Shown here: positions 19,281 through 42,382 of the stretch, one piece after another
How the letters are laid out: every line of letters starts with the position of its first letter
Numbering within the stretch: the stretch's first letter is position 1
Assembly (NCBI GenBank): GCA_024743175.1
Contig: JANSXA010000001.1
Coordinates: 62,001-126,000 of the forward strand
Origin: Pseudomonadaceae bacterium
Lineage (GTDB): Bacteria > Pseudomonadota > Gammaproteobacteria > Pseudomonadales > Azotimanducaceae
DNA: 64,000 bases
Direction of reading: 5' to 3'
Translations under genes and position numbers: made by a program
Notes under the pieces: model-generated
Database searches by the model: none
What the model saw: only the letters and a program-made list of their open reading frames with translations
Told to the model about the DNA's origin: nothing

Positions 19281-20333
19281 GTGTGTTTAGGCATGTTTCA
19301 ACAGCAGATGTTCAGTTTCTCGCGAATGCCGCGGGTTCACCGTGGGGAGCGCTTGACGGATATCGATCGAGCTAAGGGATTGGCAATTTTCCTGGTTGTT
19401 CTTGGCCATATTGTTGCCGGAGACCCCCCGAAGGGCAACGCATGGTTTGAAGAACTGGTTCGTATTGTCTATAGCTTTCATATGCCGTTTTTCATGTACC
19501 TTTCTGGTTTTGTAATGTTCTATACCTTCAAAGCCATGGATAACGCTGCAGGCTATTTCACCTATGTTCAAAAAAAGGCATTTCGCATTGCTCCTGCCTT
19601 TATCCTGTTCGGGATAGTTATTCTCCTGGGTAAAATGCTAGTTGCGCCTGTGATGCACGTCGACAATCAACCTGAGGCGGGTTTTGTTCAGGGGATCGTA
19701 GACATCCTCCTGGTGCCTGGTCAGAGCGCTGCAAAAGGTTTGTGGTTTGTGTATGTCCTGTTTGAATTCTACCTAGTGGTCCCGCTATTGCTTTTTGTTT
19801 TCGGAGGGCGAGTCTGGCCGATAGTCTTAGTTGGATTGGGGCTTGCGTTTGTTTCAGGCCCGCCAGTTCTCATGTTAGAAGGTGCCTTCGAGTATCTGAT
19901 TTATTTTTCGGTGGGTATGTTAAGCGCAAGCTCGCTGCCGAGGTACCACATTGTTCTTGACAGGTTTTGTGTCCTGTTTTTTTTGGCTTTTCTTGCGTCG
20001 CTGCCGCTCCTTTATTCCCAAGTTCCTTATCCAACAGCAAAACTCTTGATCGGATTGCTTTCAATACCCGCCTTGCATGGCCTCGTGCGCACAGCTATGT
20101 TAAGTCGTTGGGAGTTCTTGGCCGTATGGGGCTTGTTTTCATTTGCGATTTATCTCATGAACACGATAGCCATTGGGCTAGCAAAAGGTATCGCGCTTAA
20201 ATTCGTATCCTGGGATGGTGCTAATTTCCTATGGATAGCTCCATTAATTTTCGTTGCTGGATTCGTCGGCCCGATAATTGTGAAGAAGTACATTTTTGTC
20301 TACATAAAACCACTCGATAGGATCACAGACTAA
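19281..20333 (+). CDS. Membrane acyltransferase, family 3 (OafA/WecH type)
   Basis: The 350 residues form about ten membrane helices. The family signature is present early: TDIDRAKGLAIFLVVLGHI with the essential His, then SFHMPFFMYLSGFVMFY. Such proteins O-acetylate (or acylate with other short groups) polysaccharides across the inner membrane. The annotated start is GTG at 19281; ATGs at 19293, 19308 and 19326 are equally possible because the family motif begins only after RGERLTDID. The 3' end overlaps the convergent GT4 gene by 11 bases. It may work with the SGNH proteins of the locus in acyl decoration. Confidence 0.85.
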   Translation: MCLGMFQQQMFSFSRMPRVHRGERLTDIDRAKGLAIFLVVLGHIVAGDPPKGNAWFEELVRIVYSFHMPFFMYLSGFVMFYTFKAMDNAAGYFTYVQKKAFRIAPAFILFGIVILLGKMLVAPVMHVDNQPEAGFVQGIVDILLVPGQSAAKGLWFVYVLFEFYLVVPLLLFVFGGRVWPIVLVGLGLAFVSGPPVLMLEGAFEYLIYFSVGMLSASSLPRYHIVLDRFCVLFFLAFLASLPLLYSQVPYPTAKLLIGLLSIPALHGLVRTAMLSRWEFLAVWGLFSFAIYLMNTIAIGLAKGIALKFVSWDGANFLWIAPLIFVAGFVGPIIVKKYIFVYIKPLDRITD

Positions 20334-21573
20334 CTGCAGAATTCTGATTCCGCTTGGTGCTTGAAAAAAGGGCTTCCAGTTTAGCGACTTCTTTTTGGGT
20401 GGAGTGGTCTGCAGCAACATCTTCGTGTGCGGTTTTTCCCATCTCCTGAATGATTTCAACAGCCATCTCGTCTACCTCCAACAATCGTTCCGTTAACGCT
20501 GCTTGATCGCCGGCGATTGTTAGCCATCCATTCTCTCCATGTCTGACCAGTTCCGGGATTCCGGTTATCGAAGTGCTGATAACCGGGCGCATTAATGCCA
20601 TGCTTTCCATGATCACAACCGGCAGTCCTTCGGCAAAACTTGCCAATACAAGCGCGCGACTCGATAGTAGCCTGGTTCTAATTTCTTCGCCGCTACACCA
20701 TCCTGTAAGGAAGATCCGTTGTGCCAACTCGAGTTCTTTGATCCTGTTTTCTATAACTGGCCTCATTTCGCCATCGCCAATCAGGTAGAGATTCCCTCTA
20801 TGTCCTTTATTGACAGCTTCAGCAAATGCGTCAACTAGAAGTATCTGGCCTTTTTCATTACCAAGGCGGCCGACACATACGATATCATGTTGACCTGCAA
20901 TAACCGGCACTGCCGCGTCGAACCATTCTTGTCCCACAGTACAATGAATTTGATGAATATCAGGCCAGTAAGCGTACGGGACCCAGCGTTTGATTTGTGC
21001 TGAGCAGTAGCTCGTTATTGCAGTTGTGAATTCAGCATTCATCACTTTTTCGCCGAGACTCATGCTGATCGGTCCATCAAACTCCAGCGGCCCATGCACC
21101 ATTAAGCTGTACTTCGGACCACCTAGAGTTTTTGCAAGGAGGGCGATTGCAGCGGCGTTGTTACCGAAGTGCACATGAACATGCTCCAGTCGCTCCTGTT
21201 TAGCTAAAGCGACAAGAATGATGGCTTCAATCAAATAGGCGTAGTGTCGTAGAAGGCCTCTATCGCTGATTCGCCCCATTTTCGTCGCTTTAGAAAAGCC
21301 TTTGAAAATCTTGAATCCGGCGATGCGGAGACCAACTAAGATCTGCCTAATTGCGTTCCTTAGAGCGATCGGTTTTTTCAGAAACAGTGTTTGTTTGAGT
21401 TCAGCAAGGTCAGCCTTGTCCACAAGATTCTGTCCCGGGCTAAGGGCTAAGCGCGTAACCTCATAGCCCAGTTCTTCCAGTCCAAGAATTTCTCGGCGAA
21501 TAAAGGTGTGACTGACACATGGATATTCACTGCTCAGATAGCCTATTCGTTTAGTAATTGGAGTTGACTGCAT
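20323..21573 (-). CDS. Glycosyltransferase family 4
   Basis: This is a 416-residue GT-B enzyme. The N-terminal domain begins IGYLSSEYPCVSHTFIRREI, a common opening for GT4 members. The donor domain shows VCVGRLGNEKGQILLVDAF, then LIGDGEMRPVIE and the SFAEGLPVVIMESMA block with the EX7E-type acidic pair. It should add a sugar from a nucleotide donor on the cytoplasmic face. It is the last gene of the long minus-strand array and starts 23 bases after the GT2 gene before it. Confidence 0.88.
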   Translation of the reverse strand: MQSTPITKRIGYLSSEYPCVSHTFIRREILGLEELGYEVTRLALSPGQNLVDKADLAELKQTLFLKKPIALRNAIRQILVGLRIAGFKIFKGFSKATKMGRISDRGLLRHYAYLIEAIILVALAKQERLEHVHVHFGNNAAAIALLAKTLGGPKYSLMVHGPLEFDGPISMSLGEKVMNAEFTTAITSYCSAQIKRWVPYAYWPDIHQIHCTVGQEWFDAAVPVIAGQHDIVCVGRLGNEKGQILLVDAFAEAVNKGHRGNLYLIGDGEMRPVIENRIKELELAQRIFLTGWCSGEEIRTRLLSSRALVLASFAEGLPVVIMESMALMRPVISTSITGIPELVRHGENGWLTIAGDQAALTERLLEVDEMAVEIIQEMGKTAHEDVAADHSTQKEVAKLEALFSSTKRNQNSAVSL

Positions 21574-21596
21574 TGTTAGACGTACTCAGCTTTGGC

Positions 21597-22589
21597 TCAT
21601 TTGTACTCAATTAACCTGGCCTGGTTGTTCAATAGATAGTCGTACCAGTATTTGAGTTGTCCGAAAAATTCAGGAAAACGACCAAGGGTAAATGCGCTAG
21701 ATGAGATAGCTCTCTGTCGAAAACTACCAGGCAGGGTAAGGTACAGCCGCAGCCACTGCAGCGGATATACAAGCAATACCAGGAACGCTATTATCCCAAA
21801 CACAGGCAGTCCAATAAGCAAAACTGCAAAGGGCAAACCTACCCATAACCAGGCTTGCCGGGACTGTTTTACCCAGTGCTTTTCCGGAGGTGCGCCATGT
21901 AAATGTGCCCCGGCGGCGTAAGCCCAGCCGCTGCGCATGACCCGCCGCCACCACTGAGTGAAGTGAGTCATGTTTGCGTCGTGCAATGTCATTTCAGCTG
22001 GCAGGGCCTCAATTTTCCATCCTGCAGCACGAATGCGCACACACATCTCAGGTTCTTCACCCGCAATTAGGCTTTCACGATAGCCGCCAATTTCCTTTAC
22101 AACTGATACTCGGGCCATAATGTCGCCGCCACAGTATTTGGCGATGCCAGGCTGCACATCCCATTCGATATCGCACATTTCGTTGTACACGGACCGTTCA
22201 GGGAAACGCTCACGTCGGCGTCCAAAAACTATTGCGTGTCCATCGTGAGTGCGCAGATGATCGCGGGCGGTACTCAGCCAGTCAGGCTGCACCTCGCAAT
22301 CGCCATCAACAAACTGGATCCACTCCAGATCAGGCAGATGCTCCAATGCCGCTTTGAATCCGGCATTGCGCGCTCGGGCTGCTGTAAACGGTATGCTTGT
22401 ATCGAGATCTACAGTCACTGCGCCAAGGTTTTCCGCAATCGTTTTTGAATTGTCTGTAGAACCAGAATCAACATACACGGTGAGAGCAACTTTCTGGACC
22501 ACAGATGCCAGACAGGCCCTAAGCCTTTCGCCTTCGTTTCGGCCGATGGCAACTACGGCAACGTCCAACAGTTTTTCGTCGGTCGACAT
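21597..22589 (-). CDS. Glycosyltransferase family 2 with C-terminal membrane helices
   Basis: This 330-residue protein carries a GT-A domain: VAVVAIGRNEGERL at the start, VYVDSGSTDNS, the metal-binding FVDGDCEV, and AGEEPEMCVRIRAAGW. Two C-terminal helices (LWVGLPFAVLLIGLPVFGI and FLVLLVYPLQWL) should hold it at the membrane. It abuts the deacetylase gene with no gap, so translation is probably coupled. Role: transfer of one sugar during repeat-unit assembly. Confidence 0.85.
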   Translation of the reverse strand: MSTDEKLLDVAVVAIGRNEGERLRACLASVVQKVALTVYVDSGSTDNSKTIAENLGAVTVDLDTSIPFTAARARNAGFKAALEHLPDLEWIQFVDGDCEVQPDWLSTARDHLRTHDGHAIVFGRRRERFPERSVYNEMCDIEWDVQPGIAKYCGGDIMARVSVVKEIGGYRESLIAGEEPEMCVRIRAAGWKIEALPAEMTLHDANMTHFTQWWRRVMRSGWAYAAGAHLHGAPPEKHWVKQSRQAWLWVGLPFAVLLIGLPVFGIIAFLVLLVYPLQWLRLYLTLPGSFRQRAISSSAFTLGRFPEFFGQLKYWYDYLLNNQARLIEYK

Positions 22590-23300
22590 TCAGGCGCCGA
22601 CTGGTTTGTTTGTCAGGTTTTGCATAGTCACAATTTTCAATCCCTTTGCTCTTGCCTGGTTAACAATCGCTCGAGTCATATCCAACATAAATTCTCGTCT
22701 GTGCAGCTCGTCGTGATGGCTGTGCATAAGGATCACAGGTTGGCGTTTGTCTATAATTTCAGCAGCTGTCTTTTGGACATCCGGGAAATCATCATCGGTG
22801 TCGTTGGTCGGGCTGGTCCACCAGTCCACCCTGCGTTTTTTCAGCAACATGCCTATTAGGGTAAAAAGTGAAATTTTTCCGAAAGGCGGGCGATAGGGGG
22901 CGGTAGGGCTAACGTGCGGCGCCAATACCCCGTAAGCGCGTTCAGCGTCAGCATAGTCCCGCCAGGGCAGTATCTTCCAGGCGTGCCAGTGGGAGAATGA
23001 ATGCGTGCCTAATTCGTGGCCGCGTTCAGCCAATTGTTTCACTACGTCTGGCGCCCGCTCAGCTCTAAACCCAACCAGGTAGAAGGTGGCTTTTACGTCA
23101 AGCTCGTCTAACAGATTCATTAAATCGACGGAGGTAACATTGTCAGGTCCGTCATCGTAGGTTATTGCAATTTTGTCGCTGTGCTTGCGCCAACACCAGA
23201 CCTGATACAGACGATAAACCTGCGGCAGTAAAATCAGGCACAGGTAGAGGGCCAGTAGAACTGCCACTATTAAAAGAGCGGATGTTAACAGCGTATCCAT
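22590..23300 (-). CDS. Polysaccharide deacetylase (NodB homology domain), membrane-anchored
   Basis: The 236 residues begin with a membrane helix (LTSALLIVAVLLALYLCLILL) and continue as a NodB domain. Motif 1 is AITYDDGPDNVT with the catalytic and metal Asp pair (about residues 46-50) and motif 2 is HELGTHSFSHWH with the two metal His (about residues 96-102). YRPPFGK supplies motif 3, and LMHSHHDELH closes the domain. It should remove N- or O-acetyl groups from the glycan. It lies 21 bases after one GT2 gene and directly adjoins another. Confidence 0.87.
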   Translation of the reverse strand: MDTLLTSALLIVAVLLALYLCLILLPQVYRLYQVWCWRKHSDKIAITYDDGPDNVTSVDLMNLLDELDVKATFYLVGFRAERAPDVVKQLAERGHELGTHSFSHWHAWKILPWRDYADAERAYGVLAPHVSPTAPYRPPFGKISLFTLIGMLLKKRRVDWWTSPTNDTDDDFPDVQKTAAEIIDKRQPVILMHSHHDELHRREFMLDMTRAIVNQARAKGLKIVTMQNLTNKPVGA

Positions 23301-23321
23301 ATCGCGAATCTGTTGGTTGCT

Positions 23322-24275
23322 TTAGCTGGTTTTCAGCTCAGCTTCAGTCATACCCTTTTCCTGCGCAACTTGTGCACGTACTTTATCGTTGAAACGCTGT
23401 GTTGTTCGCTCCCGCCCGAACAGCAGGGATTGAAGCTCGTACTTTCTGAAATAACGCAGGTATTCGGGGTTGTCGTATCTCTGCTGACCTTTGAACACCG
23501 CACGGATATAGCCCACCATAATGCCTATACCGCCGACGATATAAGGCCTTTCAAACATGCGATATATAGCCATTACAAACACGAAGTACGGACGTGATCC
23601 CATGAAGTATTTGCCGCGGCCATGTCGCTGGCGACCCTCCCAGAAGCTGATTTCGCTGGAGCCCATTCGCCTCAAATGAATAACCTGCAACACAGGCTCA
23701 TCTTTCGCTGCGGGTATCCAGCCATTGATGCGGCAGATGTGACCATCAATGCCGTCCCAGCTAACCTGGCGCACAAACCCGCCAATAGCCTTAAAACACT
23801 CTACTCGGTAGAATTTGCACGGACCGATGGCGTTGTCGTTACGCAAGCGTTCTTCTACCAGGCGCTCGCCATATCGTAAAAAGAGTTTGCCGGATATGTT
23901 GCCGAGCAGAGGGTCATCATCCATTAACTCCATAAGGCGTTCGAAATATCCAGGCTGAAATTCCAGGTCACCATCCAGTTTGCACACGAAGTCGTAAGCG
24001 TCCAGGTCGACAACAGCAAGACCTGCATAAAAAGCGTCCATCACGCCCGGTCCAACAGAACGTTTGCCTCTATCCTCCCGTCGGACCACCTGCAGGAAAT
24101 CGTATTTTTCCTGAGCCCGTTCGAGGATCTGTGGTGTCTCATCGGTAGAGCCATCGTCTATCACTACCCATTTCGTGGGTAGGATGGTTTGCGAGCCGAC
24201 GGAGTCAATAGTCTTCTGAAGATAGTCTGCTTCGTCTCTGCATGGTGTGATCAACAGGTATTTGGATTTCATCAC
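23322..24275 (-). CDS. Glycosyltransferase family 2
   Basis: This 317-residue GT-A enzyme shows LLITPCRDEADYL, WVVIDDGSTDETPQIL, the metal motif CKLDGDLEF and a WDGIDGHICRINGW segment typical of these EPS transferases. The C-terminal part contains a short hydrophobic stretch (IVGGIGIMVGYIRAV) that may touch the membrane. The gene is ten bases downstream of the PssE-like gene and upstream of the deacetylase, within the same operon. The donor sugar is not predictable. Confidence 0.87.
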   Translation of the reverse strand: MMKSKYLLITPCRDEADYLQKTIDSVGSQTILPTKWVVIDDGSTDETPQILERAQEKYDFLQVVRREDRGKRSVGPGVMDAFYAGLAVVDLDAYDFVCKLDGDLEFQPGYFERLMELMDDDPLLGNISGKLFLRYGERLVEERLRNDNAIGPCKFYRVECFKAIGGFVRQVSWDGIDGHICRINGWIPAAKDEPVLQVIHLRRMGSSEISFWEGRQRHGRGKYFMGSRPYFVFVMAIYRMFERPYIVGGIGIMVGYIRAVFKGQQRYDNPEYLRYFRKYELQSLLFGRERTTQRFNDKVRAQVAQEKGMTEAELKTS

Positions 24276-24285
24276 ATTTACTCAG

Positions 24286-24810
24286 TTATTTTAGTGGACC
24301 GCTTTCGTTTGCGGTGATGTCTGGGAACGCAGCTGACTGTTTGTTTAGCCAGCGACCAATCGCTTGAGCAACACCCTGCACGTTTGGTTTTCGTGGTGTC
24401 GGGTTGAACACCGGCAACTGTTCGACCGCGGCCTGAAGTTCGCCAGGCGAGTTGAAAACCAGCAGATGGCCAAGTTCAGCATAGGCTTGTGCTGTCTTCT
24501 GCTGGTGATCATCTACCAGTTCGCCATGTTGTGGTAAACGGGGCAGGACCAGAAGTGGTAGAGACTGTTCGAGTGCGTTAGTAATCGTTCCGATGCCCGC
24601 ATGACTGATCACCGCGGACGCATGCGCCATTTTCTCTTCGAATTCTGATTTGGCCAGAAAACGGGTATGAGCAAAAGAGGAGGGTATGTATTTGCCGTTT
24701 CCGATCTGCGCAAATACCTCTTCGCTGATGAGTCCTTCACTCACTGCTTCATCAACCATGCGTACCAGCCGATCAAAGGGTAGGGCGCTGCCGACCGTCA
24801 GGAAGATCAC
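24286..24810 (-). CDS. PssE/Alg13-like glycosyltransferase catalytic subunit
   Basis: At 174 residues this is the C-terminal half of a split GT28-type enzyme. Key segments are MIFLTVGSALPFDRLVRMVDE at its start (shortened family opening TVGS), then VISHAGIGTITNAL and PLLVLPRLPQHGELVDDHQ, which form the UDP-sugar donor site. It overlaps the partner gene by four bases, matching the PssD-PssE, Cps14F-Cps14G and Alg14-Alg13 pairs. Together they transfer a sugar, often glucuronic acid, galactose or GlcNAc in known pairs, onto a lipid-linked acceptor. Confidence 0.85.
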   Translation of the reverse strand: MIFLTVGSALPFDRLVRMVDEAVSEGLISEEVFAQIGNGKYIPSSFAHTRFLAKSEFEEKMAHASAVISHAGIGTITNALEQSLPLLVLPRLPQHGELVDDHQQKTAQAYAELGHLLVFNSPGELQAAVEQLPVFNPTPRKPNVQGVAQAIGRWLNKQSAAFPDITANESGPLK

Positions 24811-25265
24811 ACCAGTTCTCCAGCGTAAACTGTGCCGGGGTGTCTTTCAGCCAGTTCGGGCCACTGGACGAAAAACAAGCTTGCGAACGGTTTTACCAGT
24901 TTGCCGCTCATGGAGAGTTCATCGACCTGCGAAATACTGTCGATCCAGATGACTCTGGCTCCCAGCAATCGGCCGGCAAGACAGAACAAAGCCAGTGGTA
25001 GTGAACCCGTTGTCAAAATAACTTGCGGGCGCTCACGCCAGACGATGCGTAAGGCATTCAGAAATACTTTTACGCAGGCAAATGGTGTTTGCCGGTTGCA
25101 CTCACCTATTGCAAATTTTTTCCCGTCTCGATTTTCATCACTGAGTTCTTCCAGGGTACTGATATAGTGCGTAGGCTTGGCGGGCCATAGGTCGCTGTAA
25201 CTTAATAGTGCTTCCAGCTCAGACATGTGTCCGCCCGAGGATGCGCCTACGAAAAACGACGTCAC
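24807..25265 (-). CDS. PssD/Alg14-like membrane anchor subunit of split glycosyltransferase
   Basis: This 152-residue protein matches the N-terminal half of the split transferase. The glycine-rich loop FFVGASSGGHMSEL opens the domain, PQVILTTGSLPLALFCLAGRLLG forms the hydrophobic membrane-associating region, and ARVIWIDSISQVDELSMSGK follows. Family members bring the catalytic partner to the membrane and bind the acceptor. The four-base overlap with both the downstream partner and the upstream aldo-keto-like gene suggests coupled translation. Confidence 0.85.
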   Translation of the reverse strand: MTSFFVGASSGGHMSELEALLSYSDLWPAKPTHYISTLEELSDENRDGKKFAIGECNRQTPFACVKVFLNALRIVWRERPQVILTTGSLPLALFCLAGRLLGARVIWIDSISQVDELSMSGKLVKPFASLFFVQWPELAERHPGTVYAGELV

Positions 25266-26170
25266 GGCGCCGCCAGTTCCATCTCTGCGCCCTGGCTGTG
25301 GCGTAGTATCAGGTCATAGGTTTCTTGTATATGTCCACGGCTGGATGCGCCAAATACAACAGACTCAATACCTTTCTGCTCACAAACGTAATTAATGGCA
25401 TCAGATGCGGGGATTGCGCCGGAGGCAAATACCGACATAGCAATAGGGCGGAAGCGTCCTGATTCGATTAATTTCTCGTACGACGCCTGACCGCCACACA
25501 TACGGAATGCAGCTTTGTTGATGTTTGAGCAGATAATTGGGTTTTCGATCCCGCAGCTGTTTAGCGTCTCTAAAAGTAGCGGCAGATTCATTGTGATGTA
25601 ACCTGGCTCGGCGTTATATCGTTCGCGTATGTATTCATCGAAGATCTTAAACGCGTCAGCTACACCTAAACCGAGAAGCAAGTCAGTGATGACATTCTGC
25701 ACAAAGATAACCGGCGTGGACAAACCCTCAAACGTCTTCATCTCGGCGTCGATCAGCAGATGAGCAATCGACTGTACATCAGCTTGCGCAACGGCTTTGC
25801 CACCTTTGAAAAGTGCTGAGATTTTCCCATCTGTAGGTAAAAACTGTTTGAGCGCTCCAATCATGCCTTGCTCGGTTACCGCGTTGGCATATTTGTGAGC
25901 GTAGGGCATGCACGGATAAAACTGATAATCAGGATATTTTTCCATGTTCGCGCGAAAGTAATCGCACACTTGAGCCATACGTTCATGTGTTGTGCACATA
26001 AAGGTGCGGATTCCAATCTGATACGCTGTGTCAAGGACATTGGTTACAGCTGCAATGTCCTGAAACCTGATCGCCTGGGCGCGGGCTTTTTCTTCAGACA
26101 TATGGTTAACGCCAAAGAACTGGTTATCGCCAAATATGACCCTGTCCATTTCATGATTGTTCTCAGGCAT
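25262..26170 (-). CDS. Aldo-keto-reductase-like TIM-barrel protein of unknown function
   Basis: This 302-residue soluble protein has no close family I can name. The order of segments (TNVLDTAYQIGIRTFMCTTH early, ITMNLPLLLETL mid, FRPIAMSVFASGAIPASDA, then IESVVFGASSRGHIQETYD near the end) fits the barrel of aldo-keto reductases, where the last block binds the NADPH phosphate. The usual catalytic Tyr and Lys are not obvious, so it may be an isomerase or a non-redox relative. It overlaps the upstream oxidoreductase by eight bases and the PssD-like gene by four, so it belongs to the glycan operon and may act on a sugar nucleotide. Confidence 0.55.
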   Translation of the reverse strand: MPENNHEMDRVIFGDNQFFGVNHMSEEKARAQAIRFQDIAAVTNVLDTAYQIGIRTFMCTTHERMAQVCDYFRANMEKYPDYQFYPCMPYAHKYANAVTEQGMIGALKQFLPTDGKISALFKGGKAVAQADVQSIAHLLIDAEMKTFEGLSTPVIFVQNVITDLLLGLGVADAFKIFDEYIRERYNAEPGYITMNLPLLLETLNSCGIENPIICSNINKAAFRMCGGQASYEKLIESGRFRPIAMSVFASGAIPASDAINYVCEQKGIESVVFGASSRGHIQETYDLILRHSQGAEMELAAP

Positions 26171-27269: not shown

Positions 27270-27422
27270 GTGAGATTTCTCATATTTAGAACCAAGATAA
27301 ACGAAGTGTGCAGTCAGTTAGCAGCCATCGGACGTTAAGAGGCTCAACCACCCGACAGTGTAGTAGTAAGATTTGTATCAGGGGTATACGTTCGTCTCGA
27401 AAATGTAAGCGTCGCGGCTTCT

Positions 27423-30400: not shown

Positions 30401-33400
30401 TATTCTTTGTCGGCGCTCGTTTGACCAGTCTGCGCATGTGACGGACTTCTTCCCGCCAGGCAACCACCTCGTTTTCGTGTGGCGCATGTAACTCCTGCAT
30501 CAGCCTTGAAGCGGAGGCCTCCAGCTGCTCAGGGCCCATTCTTTTGGATGTAGACTTTCCTTTAGAGGATACCGTGTACGTGTCAACAAACTTGGTGCTG
30601 ACGTTAGGCATTTCGCGAGGTATCACCAGCGATGGGCCCAGCGCCGTAGCTTTTTCGGGCATCACAATTTCGTGTTTATGCAGCGATTGTGCATTGTTGG
30701 CCAGTATGGTTAGTGCGATGGGGTTGTCCAGTGACTTTTTGCCCAGGGCTTTTGCCAGGTAGAACAACGCGTAGAAACCCTGGTTCTGAATTCGATGTAA
30801 GAACGTAGAACCCGGCCGATGAGACGTGTCCCAGGTTGTCAGCCAGGCATGAACGATCTGGTCGGGAAAGGTATCACTGTCGAGTAGGGCGGCGATTAAT
30901 GCATCGTAGCCTTCCAGGCCGGCCTCCGGTGCTAGTGTGTATCTGTTGGTATCGACCTTGCGGAAAACATCACCGACCGAGACTTCAACAACGGTGTGTC
31001 CCTGACTGGTCAGATCATTGATGAGTCGATCTGAAAGGTCATCTCCATTGCGGAAGAAAAGCCAGGTTCTTGGTGTTGCGTCTGTGTCGATGATTCCCTG
31101 TTGAATCCATTTGGGTTCAAAATACCAGTCATCCAACGATTCAAGCCGTTCCGGTAAGGTGTCCTCTATGTCAACCTGCAGGCTGCTCTTGCCAGGTTCA
31201 ATCCAGTAAGAAGCATGCTGGAAGGCATAGGTGGGTAGCGGCAGCCGGCGTTGTGGTTTTGGCCACAGGCGCTCAGCATCCAGGTTTTCAGAAAGCGCGC
31301 CACCTACTGCGATGTATCGACCTACAGCGCTTTTGAAGTAGACGTCATCTCTGGTTTGCTCTTCAGGATGCCGCATTGATGCCAGCACGCGCTGCACGGG
31401 CGCACCTTCATGCTGACGAACAAAAGACCCCAGCATATTGCCAGGTCCAACTTCTATGCAGATGCGCTGCTGATTTTCGAGCAGTTTTTCTACACCGTTA
31501 GAAAACAGTACGGTGTTGCGTAAGTGGGCGACCCAGTATTCCGGGTCGCAGGCCTCTGCATCTGTTAACCACTGTCCTGTGCGGTTGGAAACAATCGGAA
31601 TCTGGGGTGGGTTCAGCTGTAGCGACTGCAGGTGTGTTCTGAACGCGGGTAGAATTGGGTCCAGCAGTTTTGAATGTGCTGCAACGTTCACCCGAACCCG
31701 CTGAGATTCTATGCCAATTTCTTTCAGGCTGGCCGCCAGCTTGTCAAGCATGTCTGACGGCCCCGAGGCTACGGACAGATTTGGACTGTTGGCAGTAGCC
31801 AGATCAAGTCCTTCCGGCAGGTGTGTGCGCAGTTCATCCGCAGGCAGCGGAACGCTCAGAACCCCGCCTGCCTGTGTCTGTTCGAACAACTGACCACGCA
31901 AAAGAATCAGGCCCAGAGTGTCTTCAAATGAAAGCACACCAGCAATACAGGCGGCGGTGTTTTCACCCATGCTGTGACCAATCATGGCCTCAGGGACAAC
32001 GCCATAGCTCTCCCATAATTTGGCCAGCGCATGTTCAACAATAAAGGTCAGTGGCAGTTGCACCGAAGGCTGGTCGAGTGTTTCTGTCACCGGGTTCCGG
32101 CTCTCGTCACTTGCGTGGAATACGTCGTCCAGGTCAATGTCATGCCTGGTTTTAAGTAGATTAAGGCCTCGGTCAACCTGCTCGCGGAATATGGCTTCGC
32201 TGTTGTACAGGTCTTTACCCATCTGGAAATATTGTGCGCCACCACCCGGAAAGAGAAAAACCGGAGACAGAGGGGTAGTTTCCAGAGTGTGATTGAACAC
32301 CCTGCGCGGGTTGCCCTCCCGCAACAGCTCGGCGGCTTCGGACAGACTTTCGCAGGCAAGCACTCTTTGATATTCGAAGCGCTCCCGCCCATTCATCAAC
32401 GTAAACGACACGTCATTCAGCGATTGATCGGGGTGTTCATTAATCCATTGCGCCAGCTTCTGGGCGTAATCGTCGAGGGATTTTTTTGTCCTTGCTGACA
32501 GCAGCAGGAACTGTGCGCCGCCCTGATCGTGTTGACTGCTATCAGCATTCTCTACTGCGGGTGCTTCTTCCAGAATCACAAAAGCATTTGTGCCACCAAC
32601 GCCTAGCGAATTGACAGCAGCGCGTCGGGGATGATTCTGGTCCTGCCAGGGTTGTAACTCTGCCGCGACTTTGAACGGGCTGTTGTCAAAGTCAATTTCA
32701 GGATTAGGCGCTTCAAAGTTCAGCGACGGCGGAATGGTCTGGTTCTCCAGCGCCAGGGTTGCTTTGATAAGGCTGGCGACCCCAGCGGCTGTGTCCAGGT
32801 GACCGATATTGGTTTTAACAGAACCCACCCGGCAGTAACCCTTTTTGTCTGTAGACTGCCGAAACGCGCGGGTGAGGGCAGCAATTTCGATCGGATCGCC
32901 TACAGGCGTGCCGGTGCCATGGCATTCGATATAGCCGATGGTGTCAGCCGCTATGTCGCCGAGGGCGAGTGCCTCAGCAACCGCTGATGCCTGCCCTTCA
33001 ACGCTGGGTGCAAGATAGCCGACTTTGCTGGAACCATCGTTGTTGACCGCGCTGGCTTTGATCACCGCATGAACATGATCGCCATCATCAAGTGCATCTT
33101 TCAGTCGGCGCAAAGCGACAACACCGGCGCCACTGCCAAAAACAGTACCTTTGGATTTGTGGTCAAAGGCGCGGCAATGACCATCAGGGGAAAGCACTTC
33201 ACCTTCTTTGTAGGTGTACCCAATCTGATGCGGCATCTCTATGGTAACGCCGCCGGCCAGAGCCATATCGCACTCGAAGGAAAGCAGGCTCTGTACCGCA
33301 AGGTGGGTGGCTACAAGGGATGTTGAACAGGCGGTCTGTACGTTGATGCTCGGCCCACGCAGGTCGAACGCGTAAGAGGCTCGTGTGGCGAGAAAATCTT

Positions 33401-33866
33401 TATCGTTTCCGGTATGACGCAGAAGGAACAGGCCAACATCTTCAACCAGGTCCGGGTTGGTCAGCAGGTTGTAATGCAGATACGCACCCATGCCACAACC
33501 GGCAAACACACCAATCGGCCCATCAAAGTTACCGGGGGTATGGCTTGCACGTTCCAGAGCCTCCCAGGCGACTTCGTAAAACTGACGGTGTTGTGGGTCC
33601 AGAATAGCGGCTTCTTTTGGACTGAAACCAAAAAACTCCGGATCGAAGTGCCCGACATTCTGCAGCGGTACACCTTTCTTAACGTAGTTAGGGTCGTTCA
33701 GGCTGCGCTTACTGACCCCTTTAGCCAGTAATTCTTCATCGCTGTAGGTTTTAATCTGTTCGATACCGTCGCGTACGGTTCGCCAGTAGTCTTCAGGGGT
33801 GTCACAACCAGGCACACGGATGGCCATACCAACAATAGCTATGTCATTTTCATCAACTTCGTTCAT
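27423..33866 (-). CDS. Type I PKS module: KS-AT-KR-DH-ACP-TE
   Basis: From the ATG at 33866 this is a 2147-residue single-module synthase. KS (8-436) has Cys180 in TACSTS, His316 in HGTGT and His356 in NIGHLD. AT (535-831) has Ser632 in GHSMGE. KR (1164-1361) has LITGGFGGIA, Tyr1331 and Asn1335. A dehydratase-like hot-dog domain (1397-1671) follows the KR, with His1418 and Asp1588. ACP (1773-1841) carries Ser1805 in DLGGHSL. TE (1881-2131) has Ser1955 in GYSGGG and His2113. The frame is open to 33983, but that start would overlap the NRPS by 80 bases; the ATG at 33866 has AGAAG upstream and leaves a 37-base gap. The KR loop VSD keeps the Asp of B-type reductases. It probably extends the NRPS-bound residue by one unit and releases it through the TE. 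Confidence 0.92.
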   Translation of the reverse strand: MNEVDENDIAIVGMAIRVPGCDTPEDYWRTVRDGIEQIKTYSDEELLAKGVSKRSLNDPNYVKKGVPLQNVGHFDPEFFGFSPKEAAILDPQHRQFYEVAWEALERASHTPGNFDGPIGVFAGCGMGAYLHYNLLTNPDLVEDVGLFLLRHTGNDKDFLATRASYAFDLRGPSINVQTACSTSLVATHLAVQSLLSFECDMALAGGVTIEMPHQIGYTYKEGEVLSPDGHCRAFDHKSKGTVFGSGAGVVALRRLKDALDDGDHVHAVIKASAVNNDGSSKVGYLAPSVEGQASAVAEALALGDIAADTIGYIECHGTGTPVGDPIEIAALTRAFRQSTDKKGYCRVGSVKTNIGHLDTAAGVASLIKATLALENQTIPPSLNFEAPNPEIDFDNSPFKVAAELQPWQDQNHPRRAAVNSLGVGGTNAFVILEEAPAVENADSSQHDQGGAQFLLLSARTKKSLDDYAQKLAQWINEHPDQSLNDVSFTLMNGRERFEYQRVLACESLSEAAELLREGNPRRVFNHTLETTPLSPVFLFPGGGAQYFQMGKDLYNSEAIFREQVDRGLNLLKTRHDIDLDDVFHASDESRNPVTETLDQPSVQLPLTFIVEHALAKLWESYGVVPEAMIGHSMGENTAACIAGVLSFEDTLGLILLRGQLFEQTQAGGVLSVPLPADELRTHLPEGLDLATANSPNLSVASGPSDMLDKLAASLKEIGIESQRVRVNVAAHSKLLDPILPAFRTHLQSLQLNPPQIPIVSNRTGQWLTDAEACDPEYWVAHLRNTVLFSNGVEKLLENQQRICIEVGPGNMLGSFVRQHEGAPVQRVLASMRHPEEQTRDDVYFKSAVGRYIAVGGALSENLDAERLWPKPQRRLPLPTYAFQHASYWIEPGKSSLQVDIEDTLPERLESLDDWYFEPKWIQQGIIDTDATPRTWLFFRNGDDLSDRLINDLTSQGHTVVEVSVGDVFRKVDTNRYTLAPEAGLEGYDALIAALLDSDTFPDQIVHAWLTTWDTSHRPGSTFLHRIQNQGFYALFYLAKALGKKSLDNPIALTILANNAQSLHKHEIVMPEKATALGPSLVIPREMPNVSTKFVDTYTVSSKGKSTSKRMGPEQLEASASRLMQELHAPHENEVVAWREEVRHMRRLVKRAPTKNTQGLPLIRKNGVFLITGGFGGIATAISDWLVQAYDAKIVLLSRTPLPRKEDWDRWLAEHPPTDSISKSILRMRELDSAGVEVLQVSADVTVAEQMQAAQEQIIEKFGALNGIFHTAGTVSDSLIAMKTQREVEDVFAAKVYGTLVIADVFGSLPLDFVALFSSSSAFIAPQGQIDYVAANSFVNTFADAQSGLRDYPTIALNWGIWRDVGLVAPSSDNIAVLTKLHETQYPLFAAHRSGRDGLRETHRFEGELSTSDWVIAEHRLKNNDALLPGTGYIELIRAALQQINGNVPWILSNLVFEQPLFVEDTGPRAFRVNLLGNSQSWQVSVEAADLTDPSSWSTCVRASVKTDVDKPSSPVLGEIQNRFELPTESAAGSGAIKTRQEAHLKFGRRWHVLKQIYMGDGEALGELKLPADFATDLDTYLIHPGLLDIATGFAMDLIPGYAEQDIAEALWVPLSYGAYTHIKPLEGEIFSWVRLAEGSQPDHGIVAFDIDLFDNQGTQLAQVSRLTLQRTEGQFSIEKDKASHATPQSTKGKSPGELALAHNLSQGIDVPTGITALQQVLTHPAPSQVVISSMDMRSLMKQADHLVELSLTADQSSKFERPALDSDFEEPRDKTEIKLAELWGKLLGVEGVGIHDSFFDLGGHSLVAVRLFNEIRELFGTDLPMSVLMQSPTIADLASIIRGGPVGEGGESDADSEESEKPTNALQFQHVVPMQSGPVGGATPLFVVAGMFGNVLNLSHLANLLGEERPFYALQARGLYGDSVPHESFEEMATDYIKEIRQVQPEGPYLLGGYSGGGLVAYEIARQLMAVGEEVLHVIMLDTPAPSFPHFSIADKANMILQGIKKDGLGYLKTKVQTRLKWEREQRELANASDDDPMSFQSQNIGAAFLRALRNYDTPKVDVAVTVLRPKLNIHYQLSGGRMVDDDRNYVFPDNGWGPFVERLQIVEIPGNHDSMVLEPNVRVLVSEIRRVLAQSNKVSEDTLNAA

Positions 33867-33903
33867 AGAAACTTCTTGTTCACCATCCTGGTAAAAAGTG
33901 CCC

Positions 33904-36900
33904 TCAGGAGGCTTTCCGCCTGCGCTGGGCCCGCCGTTGTGCGCCGCGACTGGCGCTGGCTTCAACTTTCGAATTGTCAACACCGCCGCTTAAAAAGCTC
34001 GCCAGCGTAGCAACCGTTGTGTACTGGTACAGGTCTGTCAGAGAAATAGGCTGATCCAGGGCCTCTTTTAACTGGTTGTGCAGCTGCACTACCAATAGAG
34101 AGTGACCGCCGAGATCAAAAAAGTTTTCATTCAGACCAATCTCGTCCAGCTTCAGAACCTTTTTCCACAGCTCAGCAATCTGCATTTCCAGATCACTTTT
34201 CGGCTTGGCATCTTCAGAGATTGCTCTCGCCTGCACGGGCTTGATGTCAAGCAGTGCTTTGCGATCCAGCTTGCCGTTAGCAGTTCGCGGCATTTCTGGA
34301 AGCACAACAACTTCGTTGGGAATCATGTATTCAGGCAGGCTTGATCTCAGGGTGTCACGGACGTCAACCTCACCCATGGCTTGCGCATCGCTGGCACATA
34401 AGTAGGCCACCATGCGCTGATCACCGCTGTCAGCCGTACGCACTATCACGGCGGCTTCATCAACCGCAGGCATGGCTTCGATGCGGGATTCAATTTCACC
34501 CAGTTCAATGCGATAGCCACGCACTTTCACTTGAAAATCTGTGCGTCCAAGGTATTCGAGGCTGCCATCTTCGCGATAGGTTGCCAGGTCGCCGGTAGCG
34601 TACATTCGGCTGCCGGGTGTTTTGACAAAGGGGTCGTCAAAAAATCTATCTGCCGTTAATTCCGCGCGGTTCAGATATCCGCGAGCAACACCTTTGCCGC
34701 CAATATAGAGTTCACCGGGAATACCTTCGGGTAAAGGCTTTCGATATTTATCGAGAATATAGATCTGCGTGTTTGCAATCGGTTGGCCGATGGAGATGCC
34801 GTCGGCCAGGTTCTCAACCTGGCTCACCATAGACCAGATCGTGGTTTCGGTGGGTCCGTACATATTTGACAGCGTTGCTGATGAATTCTCTTTGAGTTCC
34901 TGTGCCAGTGATAAAGGCAATGCCTCGCCACCCAGCAGCAGGTGAGGGATCTTCTGCACCGCTGGTTTGGTCTCGCTATCCAGCAGATACATGCGCGCGG
35001 TTGAAGGCGTGCACTGCAGATGCGTGATGTTGTGAGTTTCAATGAGATCAGCAACGCTGGCTGCAGTTGCGCTGGGTTCCGCCTGGCTAACAGCCGCAAC
35101 CATTTTTTCCCGCAGTGATTTCAGACGCGGCAGACTGTCAAGAATAGCTTGAGTTTCGACGCCAAAATCCATCAGGCAGGCGATTTCGTCCACGCCGGTG
35201 TGGGTGCAGTCGGTGAGCATTTTCAGGCAGGTATCTTCATCTCCAAACAAGCCGCTGGCCACAAAATAACGCTCGAAGGCAAAATTCAGAATGGTATCGA
35301 CTTCTTCTTCACTCAGAGACTTGAGGTCAACGTCTTCCGGTTTGGTCACATCACCGCCGGGACGTTTGAACGCTGGAAAAGACCAGGCATAGTCCATGGC
35401 CAGCTTCATCGAGCTGGATAGATAGTCTTTCATCGGCTCGCGGACAATCTCACGCACTTCGTCGTTGTCTACGCCAACAAAGGTGTGCAGCATCAGGGCA
35501 ACGCGGCCTGTTGCCGGGTCGTGCCCAGCCTCCGCGCGCGCTTTGCGATACATGCGCGTTTTCTCTTTGACTTCATCCAGGGTCTGGCCGAGCAGGTGGG
35601 TCAGTACGTTCAAGCCGAGACGACCAGCTTCCATCCAGGTATCCGGATTACCTGCTGTGGTAATCCAGCAGGGCAGCTCTTTCTGCACAGGCCTGGGTAG
35701 AGACTCAAGTTCCACATCACCCAATGGACCAGGAAAGGTGAGTTTTTCGCCACGCCACAGTGCGCGGACCTGTTCCAGCTGTTCGTACATTCCGCGCTTG
35801 TTATCAGCGTGGTTTTCAGGGCGCAGCACAAAGTCGTTGGGGTTCCATCCAGAAGCCGCAGCAATTTCAACTCGTCCATTTGAAAGGTTATCAACCACGC
35901 CCCATTCTTCAGCAATGCGCACAGGATGGTGCAGGGGTACCACGCAGCTGCCCGCGCGGATTTTGATGTTGCTGGTAATTGCAGCTACGGCAGCGCCGGT
36001 GACTGCCGGGTTGGGGTAAGGTCCGCCAAATGCGTGGAAGTGTCGCTCGGGGGTCCATACTGCGGAAAAACCATTCTGGTCAAAAAACTTAGACCCTTCG
36101 ATCAGCAGTTTGTATTTGTCTGGCCCCGGACCGTCGTCGTTACCCCACATGAATAGACCCATGTCCAGGACATGGGTTGGCTGTGTAGCGGATAGCGCCG
36201 CTGCGCTACGGTGGCCACTCTCATCAAAAATGACAACTTTGAAGCCGCGATTGATTGTCCAGAAAAGCTCAAGAATGGAGATGTCGAACGACAGGCTTGT
36301 CACAGCCAGCCAGGTGCGATTTTCAAGGGTTGCGCCGGGTATGACCTTATCCATGGCAACAAAAAAATTTACAACGTTGCGGTGTTCCAGCATGACGCCT
36401 TTGGGTTTGCCTGTGGAACCTGAGGTATAAATGACGTAGGCCAGGTCCGTTGGTTTGTTCTGATTAGCAGTCGAAATTTCAGCAGCCGACTGGCTTGTGT
36501 CTGCTGACTTGTCGTCTACCAGCAGCAACGATGCGTTGCTTTGCGGAAGCTGATCAGCCAGAGCCTGCTGAGTGACAATCAGCGGCATAGCCGAGTCTTC
36601 GATCATGAAAGCAATTCGATCCGCAGGAAACGCTGGATCCAGAGGCACGTAGGCAGCACCGGATTTCAGGATGCCCAGGGTTGATACCATGAGGTCAGTA
36701 GAGCGGTTGACGTAAACGCCCACCAACGAGCCTGGACCTGCACCTGCCGACACCAGGCGGCCGGCAAGGTTAAGGGCCTGCTCATTCAGTTCCGCGTAGG
36801 TCAGCTGCACGCCGTTTGCAACAATGGCTACAGCTTCCGGCGTGGCGGCAACCTGTGCGTCGAAACCGCTGAGCATCAACTGGCTCTCATCAAACGCTAC

Positions 36901-38544
36901 ATCTGTCTGATTAAGGGTATGCAGCAGCCTTTCTCGATCTGCCGATGACAGCAGATCGAGCTCTGAGGCGGCAAGATCAGGGTTCGATTGTGTAGTGTGC
37001 AGCCAGTTCAGGAAATCTGTTCTGAGGCGTTTCACGCTGGCTGTGTCGTAAGCGTTGCGGGCAAAATCAAACTGACAGTAACCATCGTCCTGCACGTGCA
37101 GTTCAAGTTCGGCGATGGATTCAGTGTTGTGGTTACCGAGGATTACACCCACGCCGGCGTTAGGGCCAATGTTCTGCGCCACATTGGTATTGGCTTGACG
37201 TGCAATCAGGTCCTTTAAAAAGGGTGCTCTATTGGTCAGCTTGGTGACCTGCTCCGTGCAGGCGGATTGGTTGTCTGTGACGCATTTATCCGCTGGGAAT
37301 TTCAGTTGCGCAATGGCATAAGGGGCAAGCAACTCTGGTGCAGCGTTTGCTGTCTCAAAGAGACTGCCACCACAGACCAGCAGGCTCACGTCGTCGCTGG
37401 CGTTCACGCGTGCCAGAAAACTCGCAAACGATGCTGCAACCGCTTCTTTCGTCTTATTTTTGAGCGCTTCAGGTAATTCAAAAGTCAGGGATTCGCGCGC
37501 AGAGCCAGCAGCGACATCTTCAACCTGAAGTCGATAAGGCAGCGCCATAGTATTCAGGGCGGTCAGTTGTTTTGCCCAGAAGGTCTCTGCTTTACCGATA
37601 CCTTCTATAAGTGGATCAAACTTTTCGAAATCGTAATTGAGTGAAACACCCACCTTGCAGTCCAGTTGAGCAACAGATACTTCCTGACCGTTTGTATCTC
37701 GCAGAACGCCGATTTCCAGAACCTGGCCATCACCACACGCTACCCATATGAAATTTTCGTCAACTTTACAGACAGTTCCCGGTGCGCTGGTTTGGTCGTC
37801 GGTCGAGAGACTGGCGGTATCTACAATGTAAGTTTTGTTGCCTAATACAAACTTCGCTGACCCCAGGACGTTTTCATAGCGGCCTGTGTTTAATGCTCGA
37901 ACAAGGCGTTCGATGTCGGCAGCAGGTTGGGACCAGTCAATCAGTCCTAGATGTGAAGGACGATCTGAGCGTCCGTAATACTTGCGCTGGGAAAGATCCT
38001 GCGGCTGCGGCGCGAGTGTTTCGTTGCGGATCTGTTCCAGCAGGCGGGGGAAAGACTCCATGGCTGCGCTGAAACACTTGGTGTTAAGCGATAGAGCGGT
38101 ATCGTCATCAGCAATTGTGACAGGTTCGGTGACGAGTATATCGCCGGTATCAATACCCGCTGTCATCTCGTGCCAGGTAATACCGTACTGATCAGCATTG
38201 TTGATAAGAGCCCACATAGGGGTATTCAGTCCGGCATAATCAGGCAGGGGGCCGTCGTGAAAGTTTATTGCACCACGATTGGGCGTCGTAACAGCCTCGT
38301 CCGGAATCAAAGCCAGGTGAGTGATGGCAAACAGATAGTCGTAATCCAGTGCTTTCAACGCGTCAACATAGCCACTGGTTGTTGCGTGTGTGGCAATCTG
38401 ATGTCCTGCCGCCCAGCTTCTAACAGTTGGGTTGTCGGTGATCACCAGTTTAATTTCAAAATCTGCAGCCAGCAGCAGTTCACCACACTGCGAGAGCAAA
38501 GTGTCCCCACCAATCAGGGCACAACTGAAGTTTGTAGAGTGCAT
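33904..38544 (-). CDS. NRPS: formyltransferase, condensation remnant, adenylation with inserted monooxygenase, PCP
   Basis: From the ATG at 38544 the protein has 1546 residues (a TTG at 38583 is also in frame). The formyltransferase domain (1-300) keeps Asn94, His96 and Asp132. Residues 318-547 resemble the C-terminal lobe of a condensation domain, with no HHxxxDG. The adenylation domain starts near 557 and has YTSGSTGKPKG; a luciferase-like monooxygenase (about 792-1147) is inserted between motifs A4 and A5. The pocket reads D-I-L-Q-L-G-M-I-W-K (for example Asp754, Gln1177, Gly1205, Trp1237), which matches the glycine code as I remember it. The PCP has Ser1482 in DLGGHSL. MtaG and MelG of myxobacteria show a similar monooxygenase in a glycine module. 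Predicted start unit: an N-formylated, oxidised glycine. Confidence 0.9.
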   Translation of the reverse strand: MHSTNFSCALIGGDTLLSQCGELLLAADFEIKLVITDNPTVRSWAAGHQIATHATTSGYVDALKALDYDYLFAITHLALIPDEAVTTPNRGAINFHDGPLPDYAGLNTPMWALINNADQYGITWHEMTAGIDTGDILVTEPVTIADDDTALSLNTKCFSAAMESFPRLLEQIRNETLAPQPQDLSQRKYYGRSDRPSHLGLIDWSQPAADIERLVRALNTGRYENVLGSAKFVLGNKTYIVDTASLSTDDQTSAPGTVCKVDENFIWVACGDGQVLEIGVLRDTNGQEVSVAQLDCKVGVSLNYDFEKFDPLIEGIGKAETFWAKQLTALNTMALPYRLQVEDVAAGSARESLTFELPEALKNKTKEAVAASFASFLARVNASDDVSLLVCGGSLFETANAAPELLAPYAIAQLKFPADKCVTDNQSACTEQVTKLTNRAPFLKDLIARQANTNVAQNIGPNAGVGVILGNHNTESIAELELHVQDDGYCQFDFARNAYDTASVKRLRTDFLNWLHTTQSNPDLAASELDLLSSADRERLLHTLNQTDVAFDESQLMLSGFDAQVAATPEAVAIVANGVQLTYAELNEQALNLAGRLVSAGAGPGSLVGVYVNRSTDLMVSTLGILKSGAAYVPLDPAFPADRIAFMIEDSAMPLIVTQQALADQLPQSNASLLLVDDKSADTSQSAAEISTANQNKPTDLAYVIYTSGSTGKPKGVMLEHRNVVNFFVAMDKVIPGATLENRTWLAVTSLSFDISILELFWTINRGFKVVIFDESGHRSAAALSATQPTHVLDMGLFMWGNDDGPGPDKYKLLIEGSKFFDQNGFSAVWTPERHFHAFGGPYPNPAVTGAAVAAITSNIKIRAGSCVVPLHHPVRIAEEWGVVDNLSNGRVEIAAASGWNPNDFVLRPENHADNKRGMYEQLEQVRALWRGEKLTFPGPLGDVELESLPRPVQKELPCWITTAGNPDTWMEAGRLGLNVLTHLLGQTLDEVKEKTRMYRKARAEAGHDPATGRVALMLHTFVGVDNDEVREIVREPMKDYLSSSMKLAMDYAWSFPAFKRPGGDVTKPEDVDLKSLSEEEVDTILNFAFERYFVASGLFGDEDTCLKMLTDCTHTGVDEIACLMDFGVETQAILDSLPRLKSLREKMVAAVSQAEPSATAASVADLIETHNITHLQCTPSTARMYLLDSETKPAVQKIPHLLLGGEALPLSLAQELKENSSATLSNMYGPTETTIWSMVSQVENLADGISIGQPIANTQIYILDKYRKPLPEGIPGELYIGGKGVARGYLNRAELTADRFFDDPFVKTPGSRMYATGDLATYREDGSLEYLGRTDFQVKVRGYRIELGEIESRIEAMPAVDEAAVIVRTADSGDQRMVAYLCASDAQAMGEVDVRDTLRSSLPEYMIPNEVVVLPEMPRTANGKLDRKALLDIKPVQARAISEDAKPKSDLEMQIAELWKKVLKLDEIGLNENFFDLGGHSLLVVQLHNQLKEALDQPISLTDLYQYTTVATLASFLSGGVDNSKVEASASRGAQRRAQRRRKAS

Positions 38545-42361: not shown

Positions 42362-42382
42362 TTGACTCCGAAGTTTGGCGAG

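Follow-up and report, generated by a model that had tools for sequence, protein, structure and literature searches.

An NRPS-PKS pair in a bacterial exopolysaccharide locus whose relatives track two glycosyltransferase families and which probably supplies a substituent of the polymer

The window analyzed in this study is a 64,000-nucleotide stretch of contig JANSXA010000001.1 (positions 62,001 to 126,000, forward strand) from the 4.7-Mb genome of a Pseudomonadaceae bacterium (GCA_024743175.1), and its central feature is a nonribosomal peptide synthetase (NRPS) gene which is followed by a polyketide synthase (PKS) gene and eight further genes. These ten genes are the middle of a larger exopolysaccharide (EPS) locus of about 50 kb which extends to both sides of them. 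An earlier note on this DNA had described ten minus-strand genes in succession from 38544 to 20323, with the eight downstream of the PKS overlapping or lying no more than 23 bases apart and the single larger gap following the PKS, and open reading frame (ORF) calls confirmed each of these points. Pfam and NCBIfam matches identified the NRPS (33904..38544; TIGR04020), the PKS (27423..33866), a Gfo/Idh/MocA oxidoreductase (26163..27269; PF01408, PF22725), a PssD/Alg14-like glycosyltransferase (GT) subunit (24807..25265; PF08660; NF041549 at 100.2 bits, cut-off 110), a PssE/Alg13-like GT subunit (24286..24810; PF04101; NF041548 at 108.7 bits, cut-off 120), two GT2 enzymes, GT2a (23322..24275) and GT2b (21597..22589; both PF00535), a NodB-type polysaccharide deacetylase (22590..23300; PF01522) and a GT4 (20323..21573; PF13692), all on the minus strand. 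GT2a and GT2b have relatives, 55% and 54% identical respectively, beside the NRPS of G008, a genome of the same genus. All eight downstream genes had been described as glycan-type; for one of them, a 302-aa protein (25262..26170, minus strand), the label is a guess from position, and neither Pfam nor NCBIfam gave a model, a PDB sequence search returned no match and a single-sequence AlphaFold model was unusable (predicted local distance difference test score, pLDDT, 41.5).

The NRPS ORF (33904-38583) opens at a TTG codon and the start at 38544 is an ATG. The PKS ORF (27423-33983) opens at a GTG at 33983, and the PKS probably starts instead at the ATG at 33866, 37 bases after the NRPS stop. A promoter and terminator in the 153-base gap between the PKS and the Gfo/Idh gene (27270-27422) would have spoken against a continuous array; a simple consensus scan found neither a sigma-70-like promoter nor a terminator-like hairpin there on either strand, and the same scan gave two promoter-like sites per strand over the whole of 20200-39100. 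It is the comparative tests presented below (marker linkage, tree and co-occurrence), and not co-direction alone, which place the association of the pair with glycan genes beyond chance.

The NRPS consists of a formyltransferase (FT) domain (37663-38544), a remnant of a condensation-domain C-lobe (36922-37587, matching a C-terminal piece of PF00668 below the Pfam cut-off), an adenylation (A) domain in two parts (36172-36864 and 34249-35100) around a luciferase-like monooxygenase (LLM; 35110-36156), and a peptidyl carrier protein (PCP; 33991-34182). The LLM belongs to the MupA/Atu3671 family (TIGR04020), with a score of 474.2 bits against a curated cut-off of 244.45, and its closest solved structure is PuwE (6ket, E 7.3e-104). 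The best structural matches of the FT were ArnA and methionyl-tRNA formyltransferases, and structures of LgrA, the linear gramicidin synthetase, were also matched. Formyltransferases use an Asn/His/Asp catalytic triad, and this was present in the window FT as N94/H96/D132; among 70 aligned NRPS sequences the Asn and His were kept in all 70 and the Asp in 68. Initiation by LgrA follows the order F-A-PCP, and the fused FT, A and PCP domains with intact triad constitute an initiation module of this type. The motif HHxxxDG, by which a canonical elongating module would be recognized, was found in none of 76 NRPS sequences within their first 700 residues; an FT-less relative in genome G048, outside these 76, has a full condensation domain with HHxxxDG in place of the FT. 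Two further relatives, L075 (Sphingomonas) and L077 (Pyrinomonadaceae), have FT-NRPS ORFs for which the search found no LLM, and L075 still adjoins genes of the GT2c (described below), GT4 and initiating-transferase types.

The specificity code of the A domain was read from an alignment in which positions were set by conserved motifs and not by structure, and it was D-I-L-Q-L-G-M-I-W-K in the window and D-I-L-Q-(M/L/F/Y/C)-G-M-(I/V)-W-K across the 70 NRPSs, with one departure at position 322 and one gap at 517. Positions 235, 236, 239, 278, 301 and 331 were identical in all 70 sequences and position 322 in 69, position 330 was I or V, and position 299 varied. A domains which activate glycine have a code close to D-I-L-Q-L-G-L-I-W-K, and from this likeness the A domain is predicted to activate glycine.

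The PKS has the domain order KS-AT-KR-DH-ACP-TE, that is ketosynthase (32712-33848), acyltransferase (31371-32261), ketoreductase (29778-30371), dehydratase (28848-29672), acyl carrier protein (28350-28535) and thioesterase (27513-28217), in which the KR precedes the DH, and it provides one extension module; no enoylreductase (ER) domain was found among its Pfam matches. The motifs of all six domains were each kept in 52-57 of 57 PKS sequences (DH His in 56, DH Asp in 53, TE in 52). The AT motif of these sequences was mostly xxAAHS, which differs from both textbook extender-unit motifs and gave no prediction of the extender unit. With an A-PCP module, a KS-AT-ACP module and intact catalytic motifs the window pair is an NRPS-PKS hybrid, and the two proteins are inferred to work in series. 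Since the catalytic residues and the A-domain code are kept across the 70 NRPSs and the motifs across nearly all of the PKSs, the two enzymes seem to have been kept for a single shared chemistry.

A strong NRPS match was found in 8 of 97 genomes searched, the window's own genome included. The NRPS and PKS of G008 are likewise part of an EPS locus, where they are divergent to each other and accompanied by relatives of the window wzz, amidotransferase, carbamoyltransferase, GT2a and GT2b genes in a different order. A scan of GTDB contigs with the FT part of the NRPS then found 561 relatives, and the loci of the best 80 were fetched; 46 of these 80 loci are from Alphaproteobacteria, so that the sample is weighted to that class. 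An FT-LLM NRPS was recognized in 69 of the 80 loci, a PKS in 62 and both, at least in part, in 57; longest-ORF calling gave no FT-LLM ORF in the other 11 loci, and in one of these (L056) the gene is present and hidden by an antisense ORF. Both genes were complete in 48 loci, on the same strand in 46 of these, and an ORF of the GT2c family lay between them in 24 of the 48. Neighboring genes across the 80 loci included the GT2c family (37 loci), phosphopantetheinyl transferase (PPTase; 29), Wzx (21), window-type GT4 (20), Wzz (17) and Wzy-like proteins (16), and CbiA/ParA-type genes, which we read as bacterial tyrosine kinase (BY-kinase) genes, recurred alongside the last-named Wzx, Wzz and Wzy-like genes. 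At least two glycan ORFs were present in the fetched flanks of 47 loci and one in 15, counts which are favored by marker hidden Markov models (HMMs) built partly from the case loci themselves, a bias which affects the tree labels below as well and of which the Pfam marker test and the 148-genome profile test are free. EPS loci with such relatives occur in several classes and in no fewer than three phyla. The earlier note regarded megasynthases as seldom placed before such glycan genes, a premise which fails for this NRPS-PKS pair, as 45 of 58 fetched Pseudomonadota loci had, by the same markers, at least two flanking glycan ORFs. The order NRPS-PKS-Gfo/Idh-PssD, for which a search had been proposed, did not recur in any other locus examined, and we rejected it as a conserved unit.

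Evidence for a tie to glycan assembly came from a profile test in 148 genomes around a Phaeobacter genome, in which the window NRPS (E up to 1e-150), the GT4 and GT2c (E up to 1e-40) were the queries, with no negative-control glycosyltransferase among them. GT2c (38965..39966, plus strand; PF00535) is the GT2 gene which lies divergent to the NRPS. The NRPS had a match in 42 of the 148 genomes, GT2c had an orthologue-level match in exactly those 42, and GT4 had a match in those 42 plus one. GT2c lay no more than 1.6 kb from the NRPS in 41 of the 42, and GT4 no more than 20 kb from it in 38, being on another contig in the other 4. The listed GT4-negative genomes also had up to 13 first-look GT4 candidates. 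NRPS, GT2c and GT4 come and go together in these 148 genomes with one exception, and the simplest account of a co-occurrence so near to perfect would be a single pathway, in which the group made by the assembly line ends on the GT2c/GT4 glycan.

Linkage to polysaccharide genes was measured against genome background in a second set of 46 genomes. Matches to the window NRPS alone, without the PKS (E up to 1e-150), defined 46 NRPS places in 45 of these genomes (Sphingomonas genome G111 had none), and those of G048 and G128 and one in G132 cover only the part behind the FT. An initiating transferase (PF02397) or Wzz (PF02706) marker lay, among the matches listed, no more than 20 kb from 24 of the 46 places and no more than 10 kb from 21, against 2.32 and 1.29 expected from marker density. 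Other condensation-domain loci of the same genomes had a marker nearby in 2 of 15 cases among the matches listed (Fisher p 0.008, in related genomes which are not independent, so that p-values overstate independence); the two control loci with a marker were G113:C15 and G117:C4, and that of G117:C4 was a 31-bit match. Four loci no more than 40 kb from an NRPS place, the G115 loci (no marker data) and sub-cut-off matches had been dropped from these controls, and several of the remainder come from G119. Of the 36 other genomes of the same set with a GT2c match, 24 have the best one no more than 15 kb from the NRPS and 12 have it on another contig; of 30 with a GT4 match, 22 have the best one no more than 30 kb from the NRPS, seven have it on another contig and one, G103, has it 185 kb away. 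Some of the GT2c misses are Chloroflexota with weak matches and some misses may be contig breaks.

A tree of 70 NRPS sequences (LG+G4; Shimodaira-Hasegawa-like approximate likelihood ratio (SH-aLRT) support, no bootstrap, root not inferred) placed the window with G008 and Porticoccus (support 99) inside a clade of 57 rows (SH-aLRT 99). Excluded from it were L028 and L099, which are second copies of G008 and G047, together with the sequences of G081 and G048 and any ORF no longer than 1300 aa. Within the clade 53 rows had glycan ORFs nearby (46 at least two, 7 one) and 4 had none; three of these four are on contigs of 4-12 kb, and for the remaining one, L034, the best match to GT2c lies at a distance of 10.6 kb. 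Among the 13 rows outside the clade 11 had no glycan ORF (five Chloroflexota, an Acidobacteriota, a Bacillota, a Myxococcota, an Aquincola, and G078 and G092 on two long branches far from the window), and a Burkholderiales and a Salinivenus had one each. The three-way glycan label required 13 changes on the tree against a mean of 22.1 for shuffled labels, and none of 200 shuffles was as low. From this clustering an EPS-bound branch can be distinguished from outlying lines, whose function may differ. Homologues regularly free of glycan genes, which the earlier note had regarded as evidence against its reading, do occur among the outlying rows and not in the clade of the window.

The remainder of the locus contains the components expected of a Wzx/Wzy-dependent EPS locus: initiating transferases, Wzx, Wzz and several GTs, with Wzy recognized by cluster similarity alone. 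Beyond GT2c, on the plus strand, are a 376-aa protein (40062..41192; no family match, no match in a PDB sequence search, and an unusable single-sequence AlphaFold model with pLDDT 33.4), an AurF-type N-oxygenase (41214..42074; PF11583), a stand-alone adenylation domain (42362..43987; TIGR01733, 334 bits), two sugar-phosphate initiating transferases (44082..45497 and 48378..49796; both PF02397) and a MatE-type flippase (46842..48374; PF01554). On the other side of the array, again on the plus strand, lie an acyltransferase of family 3 (19281..20333; PF01757), which is a candidate glycan acyltransferase, a Wzy-like membrane protein (16833..18272), a Wzz/XrtA-type chain-length determinant (15183..16754; TIGR03007 at 385.9 bits, cut-off 278.85), an asparagine-synthase-type amidotransferase (13170..15089) and a Wzx-type flippase (1111..2478; PF13440), which has matches in 21 of the 80 relatives. 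The Wzy label is a guess: the protein matched an ORF of L097 (phmmer, 86.8 bits) and 15 loci in all, and neither it nor its cluster had a Pfam or NCBIfam family match. The XrtA-type model for the amidotransferase, TIGR03108, gave 433.2 bits against the 816.9 needed, while TIGR03007 was above its cut-off. This side also contains another GT, SGNH proteins and a carbamoyltransferase (4721-6565), which shares 78% identity with a carbamoyltransferase of the EPS locus in G008. The sole PF01648 PPTase found in the genome is encoded on this contig too, roughly 54 kb away from the NRPS. The two initiating transferases are about 3 kb apart and two flippases (1111-2478 and 46842-48374) occur in the one locus, and from this doubling the locus perhaps makes two polymers. 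None of the ORFs in the 80 loci fetched matched the window AurF, in a comparison from which the stand-alone A domain was left out, and the AurF gene is therefore likely to be a local addition. A free-standing LLM of the same family as that of the NRPS lies directly beside an AurF gene, itself about 45% identical to the AurF gene of the window, elsewhere in G008 (C15) and in G031 (C346), at L026 14332-16325 and L013 1501-3463.

Taken together, these results make coupling of the pair to a glycan well supported, and we consider it probable that the pair makes a short N-formylated, hydroxylated aminoacyl-polyketide which ends up on the EPS repeat unit as a substituent. What the A domain loads, what is made, and how and when it is attached are inferred. 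The NRPS and PKS would work as an assembly line of two proteins which serves a single exopolysaccharide. Its A domain would charge the PCP with glycine or a glycine-like acid, the FT would formylate the nitrogen of the loaded amino acid and the LLM would hydroxylate the loaded unit, either on N or at the alpha carbon. One extension by the KS, with a unit selected by the AT, may come next, followed by reduction by the KR and dehydration by the DH, and the TE would release or transfer the resulting short acyl chain. Either the TE or an acyltransferase would attach this chain as an ester or amide to a sugar of a repeat unit built by the neighboring glycosyltransferases, GT2c and GT4 above all, and the decorated unit would then be flipped and polymerized by the Wzx/Wzy/Wzz machinery of the locus.

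A number of observations weigh against this interpretation. The profile test followed the NRPS and not the PKS, in genomes which are related and not independent, and one genome, G206 (G206:C4:2840655), has a GT4 match with no NRPS match at the threshold. For 22 of the 46 NRPS places neither marker lay within 20 kb, among the matches listed. Of the 561 relatives, the 80 whose loci were fetched are the ones closest to the window in the FT part of the NRPS, and in 18 of these loci, including all 5 from Chloroflexota, the flanks fetched have no glycan ORF. The Gfo/Idh, 302-aa, PssD, PssE and NodB genes were unmatched in the 40 kb around the NRPS of G008, despite its belonging to the same genus, and no family of acyltransferases was recognized as a constant feature of the loci.

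Several of the same observations would suit a pair which makes a small glycosylated natural product, with GT2c and GT4 as tailoring glycosyltransferases of a secreted glycoconjugate and with the polymer genes sharing its sugar precursors. An FT/A/LLM/PCP protein with one PKS module and a TE does resemble a natural-product line, the outlying relatives lie outside EPS loci, and GT2c is the glycosyltransferase nearest to the NRPS; we nonetheless hold this to be unlikely, because the loci of the pair repeatedly contain Wzz, CbiA/ParA-type, Wzx and Wzy-like genes and over half of the sampled NRPS places (24/46, among the matches listed) are no more than 20 kb from Wzz or an initiating transferase. 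A free small molecule such as a signal or siderophore-like ligand, which acts on or with the EPS unattached and is fixed in the locus by co-regulation, is a weaker candidate and quite improbable. The TE can release a free acid, and an FT together with a monooxygenase could yield a formyl-hydroxamate, which is a metal ligand, but co-occurrence with a GT family in 42 of 42 genomes exceeds what co-regulation needs, and no receptor or uptake gene was recognized among the annotated recurrent neighbor clusters, several of which are nameless. That chemistry also underlies a more specific form of the substituent interpretation, in which the EPS is decorated with an N-formyl-N-hydroxy-glycine-derived (hydroxamate) polyketide by a dedicated system found over several phyla, so that the coat is a metal-binding polymer. 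It would fit the AurF-type N-oxygenase nearby and the free LLM-AurF pairs in two relatives, and we regard it as doubtful.

The earlier note had left it open whether the product is a substituent of a polysaccharide or a lipid-like anchor. The tie to a polysaccharide stood, given the recurrent EPS loci and the two glycosyltransferases which track the NRPS, and the anchor was disfavored. RkpA is reported to have a role of the lipid-primer or anchor type. PKS genes occur in capsule loci (PMC3908369). However, the window PKS has one extension module and no ER domain among its Pfam matches, and two separate initiating sugar-phosphate transferases are present in the window. For these reasons a short substituent is preferred, and an anchor or primer was rejected as the leading interpretation and is very unlikely. 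Least probable of all, and already strongly disfavored, is that a natural-product island and an EPS locus were brought together by chance or history. EPS loci are hot spots of gene gain, and gene order differs even in G008; the linkage, tree and 148-genome profile tests all speak against such a juxtaposition.

The closest precedent for a PKS coupled to surface polysaccharide is WcbR/RkpA of the Burkholderia wcb and Rhizobium rkp loci, which share with the window a type I PKS gene within a polysaccharide locus (PMC3908369, PMC4245539). The accessible parts of these sources name no NRPS partner, formyltransferase or LLM, and the likeness drawn here is one of locus context. LgrA resembles the window NRPS in its N-terminal formyltransferase and differs in that the window FT is best matched by ArnA and methionyl-tRNA formyltransferases, the LLM lies within the A domain, a PKS is the partner and the context is EPS. 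The LLMs of PuwE and MupA/Atu3671 are of the same family, and that of the window sits inside the A domain of an EPS-linked NRPS. The palmerolide PKS-NRPS cluster also has an LLM domain in its assembly line, for which alpha-hydroxylation was proposed, but it is a trans-AT system of about 75 kb that makes a free macrolide (PMC8739492). O-antigens and capsules carry short acyl groups, among them 3,5-dihydroxyhexanoyl on bacillosamine, 3-hydroxy-2,3-dimethyl-5-oxopyrrolidine-2-carboxyl on Qui3N, and N-acyl groups on Qui4N (PMC3210612). Like the predicted window product these are short polyketide-like or aminoacyl-derived groups on sugars; the likeness drawn here is of chemical group, and no NRPS-PKS is named for them in the accessible part of that source. 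Judged by titles and abstract openings, no literature report of this NRPS-PKS in EPS loci was found.

If the substituent interpretation is correct, a widespread class of NRPS-PKS makes a covalent group of surface polysaccharides and not free metabolites, and assembly-line enzymology would be tied to glycan diversity, with GT2c and GT4 as the first two glycosyltransferases to study. The pair would be the main assembly line of many carriers, as a condensation domain above the cut-off was absent in 13 of 24 carrier genomes checked. Genome mining would file such a cluster as a cryptic natural product and chemists would search the wrong fraction. It would also predict an as yet unseen EPS substituent in culturable Rhodobacterales and Hydrogenophaga; cultured strains whose fetched loci contain both genes include Phaeobacter sp. 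B1627, Pelagimonas phthalicica DSM 26923 and Hydrogenophaga pseudoflava CZa25-1.

Two further groups of genes were observed near the relatives. Paired ORFs with GHSL motifs (L101 15289-18701 and orthologues, cluster c3), some with signal-like starts and with no Pfam match, come after the PPTase gene in many Rhodobacterales loci and may be transferases or hydrolases of the SGNH type that act on the substituent. Two hydrolases (L017 4561-5421 and L024 8836-9753), of which one adjoins the NRPS in G047 and the other is separated by one gene from the PKS of G048, show a weak likeness to exosortase-A-associated hydrolase 1 (69 and 109 bits against a cut-off of 168).

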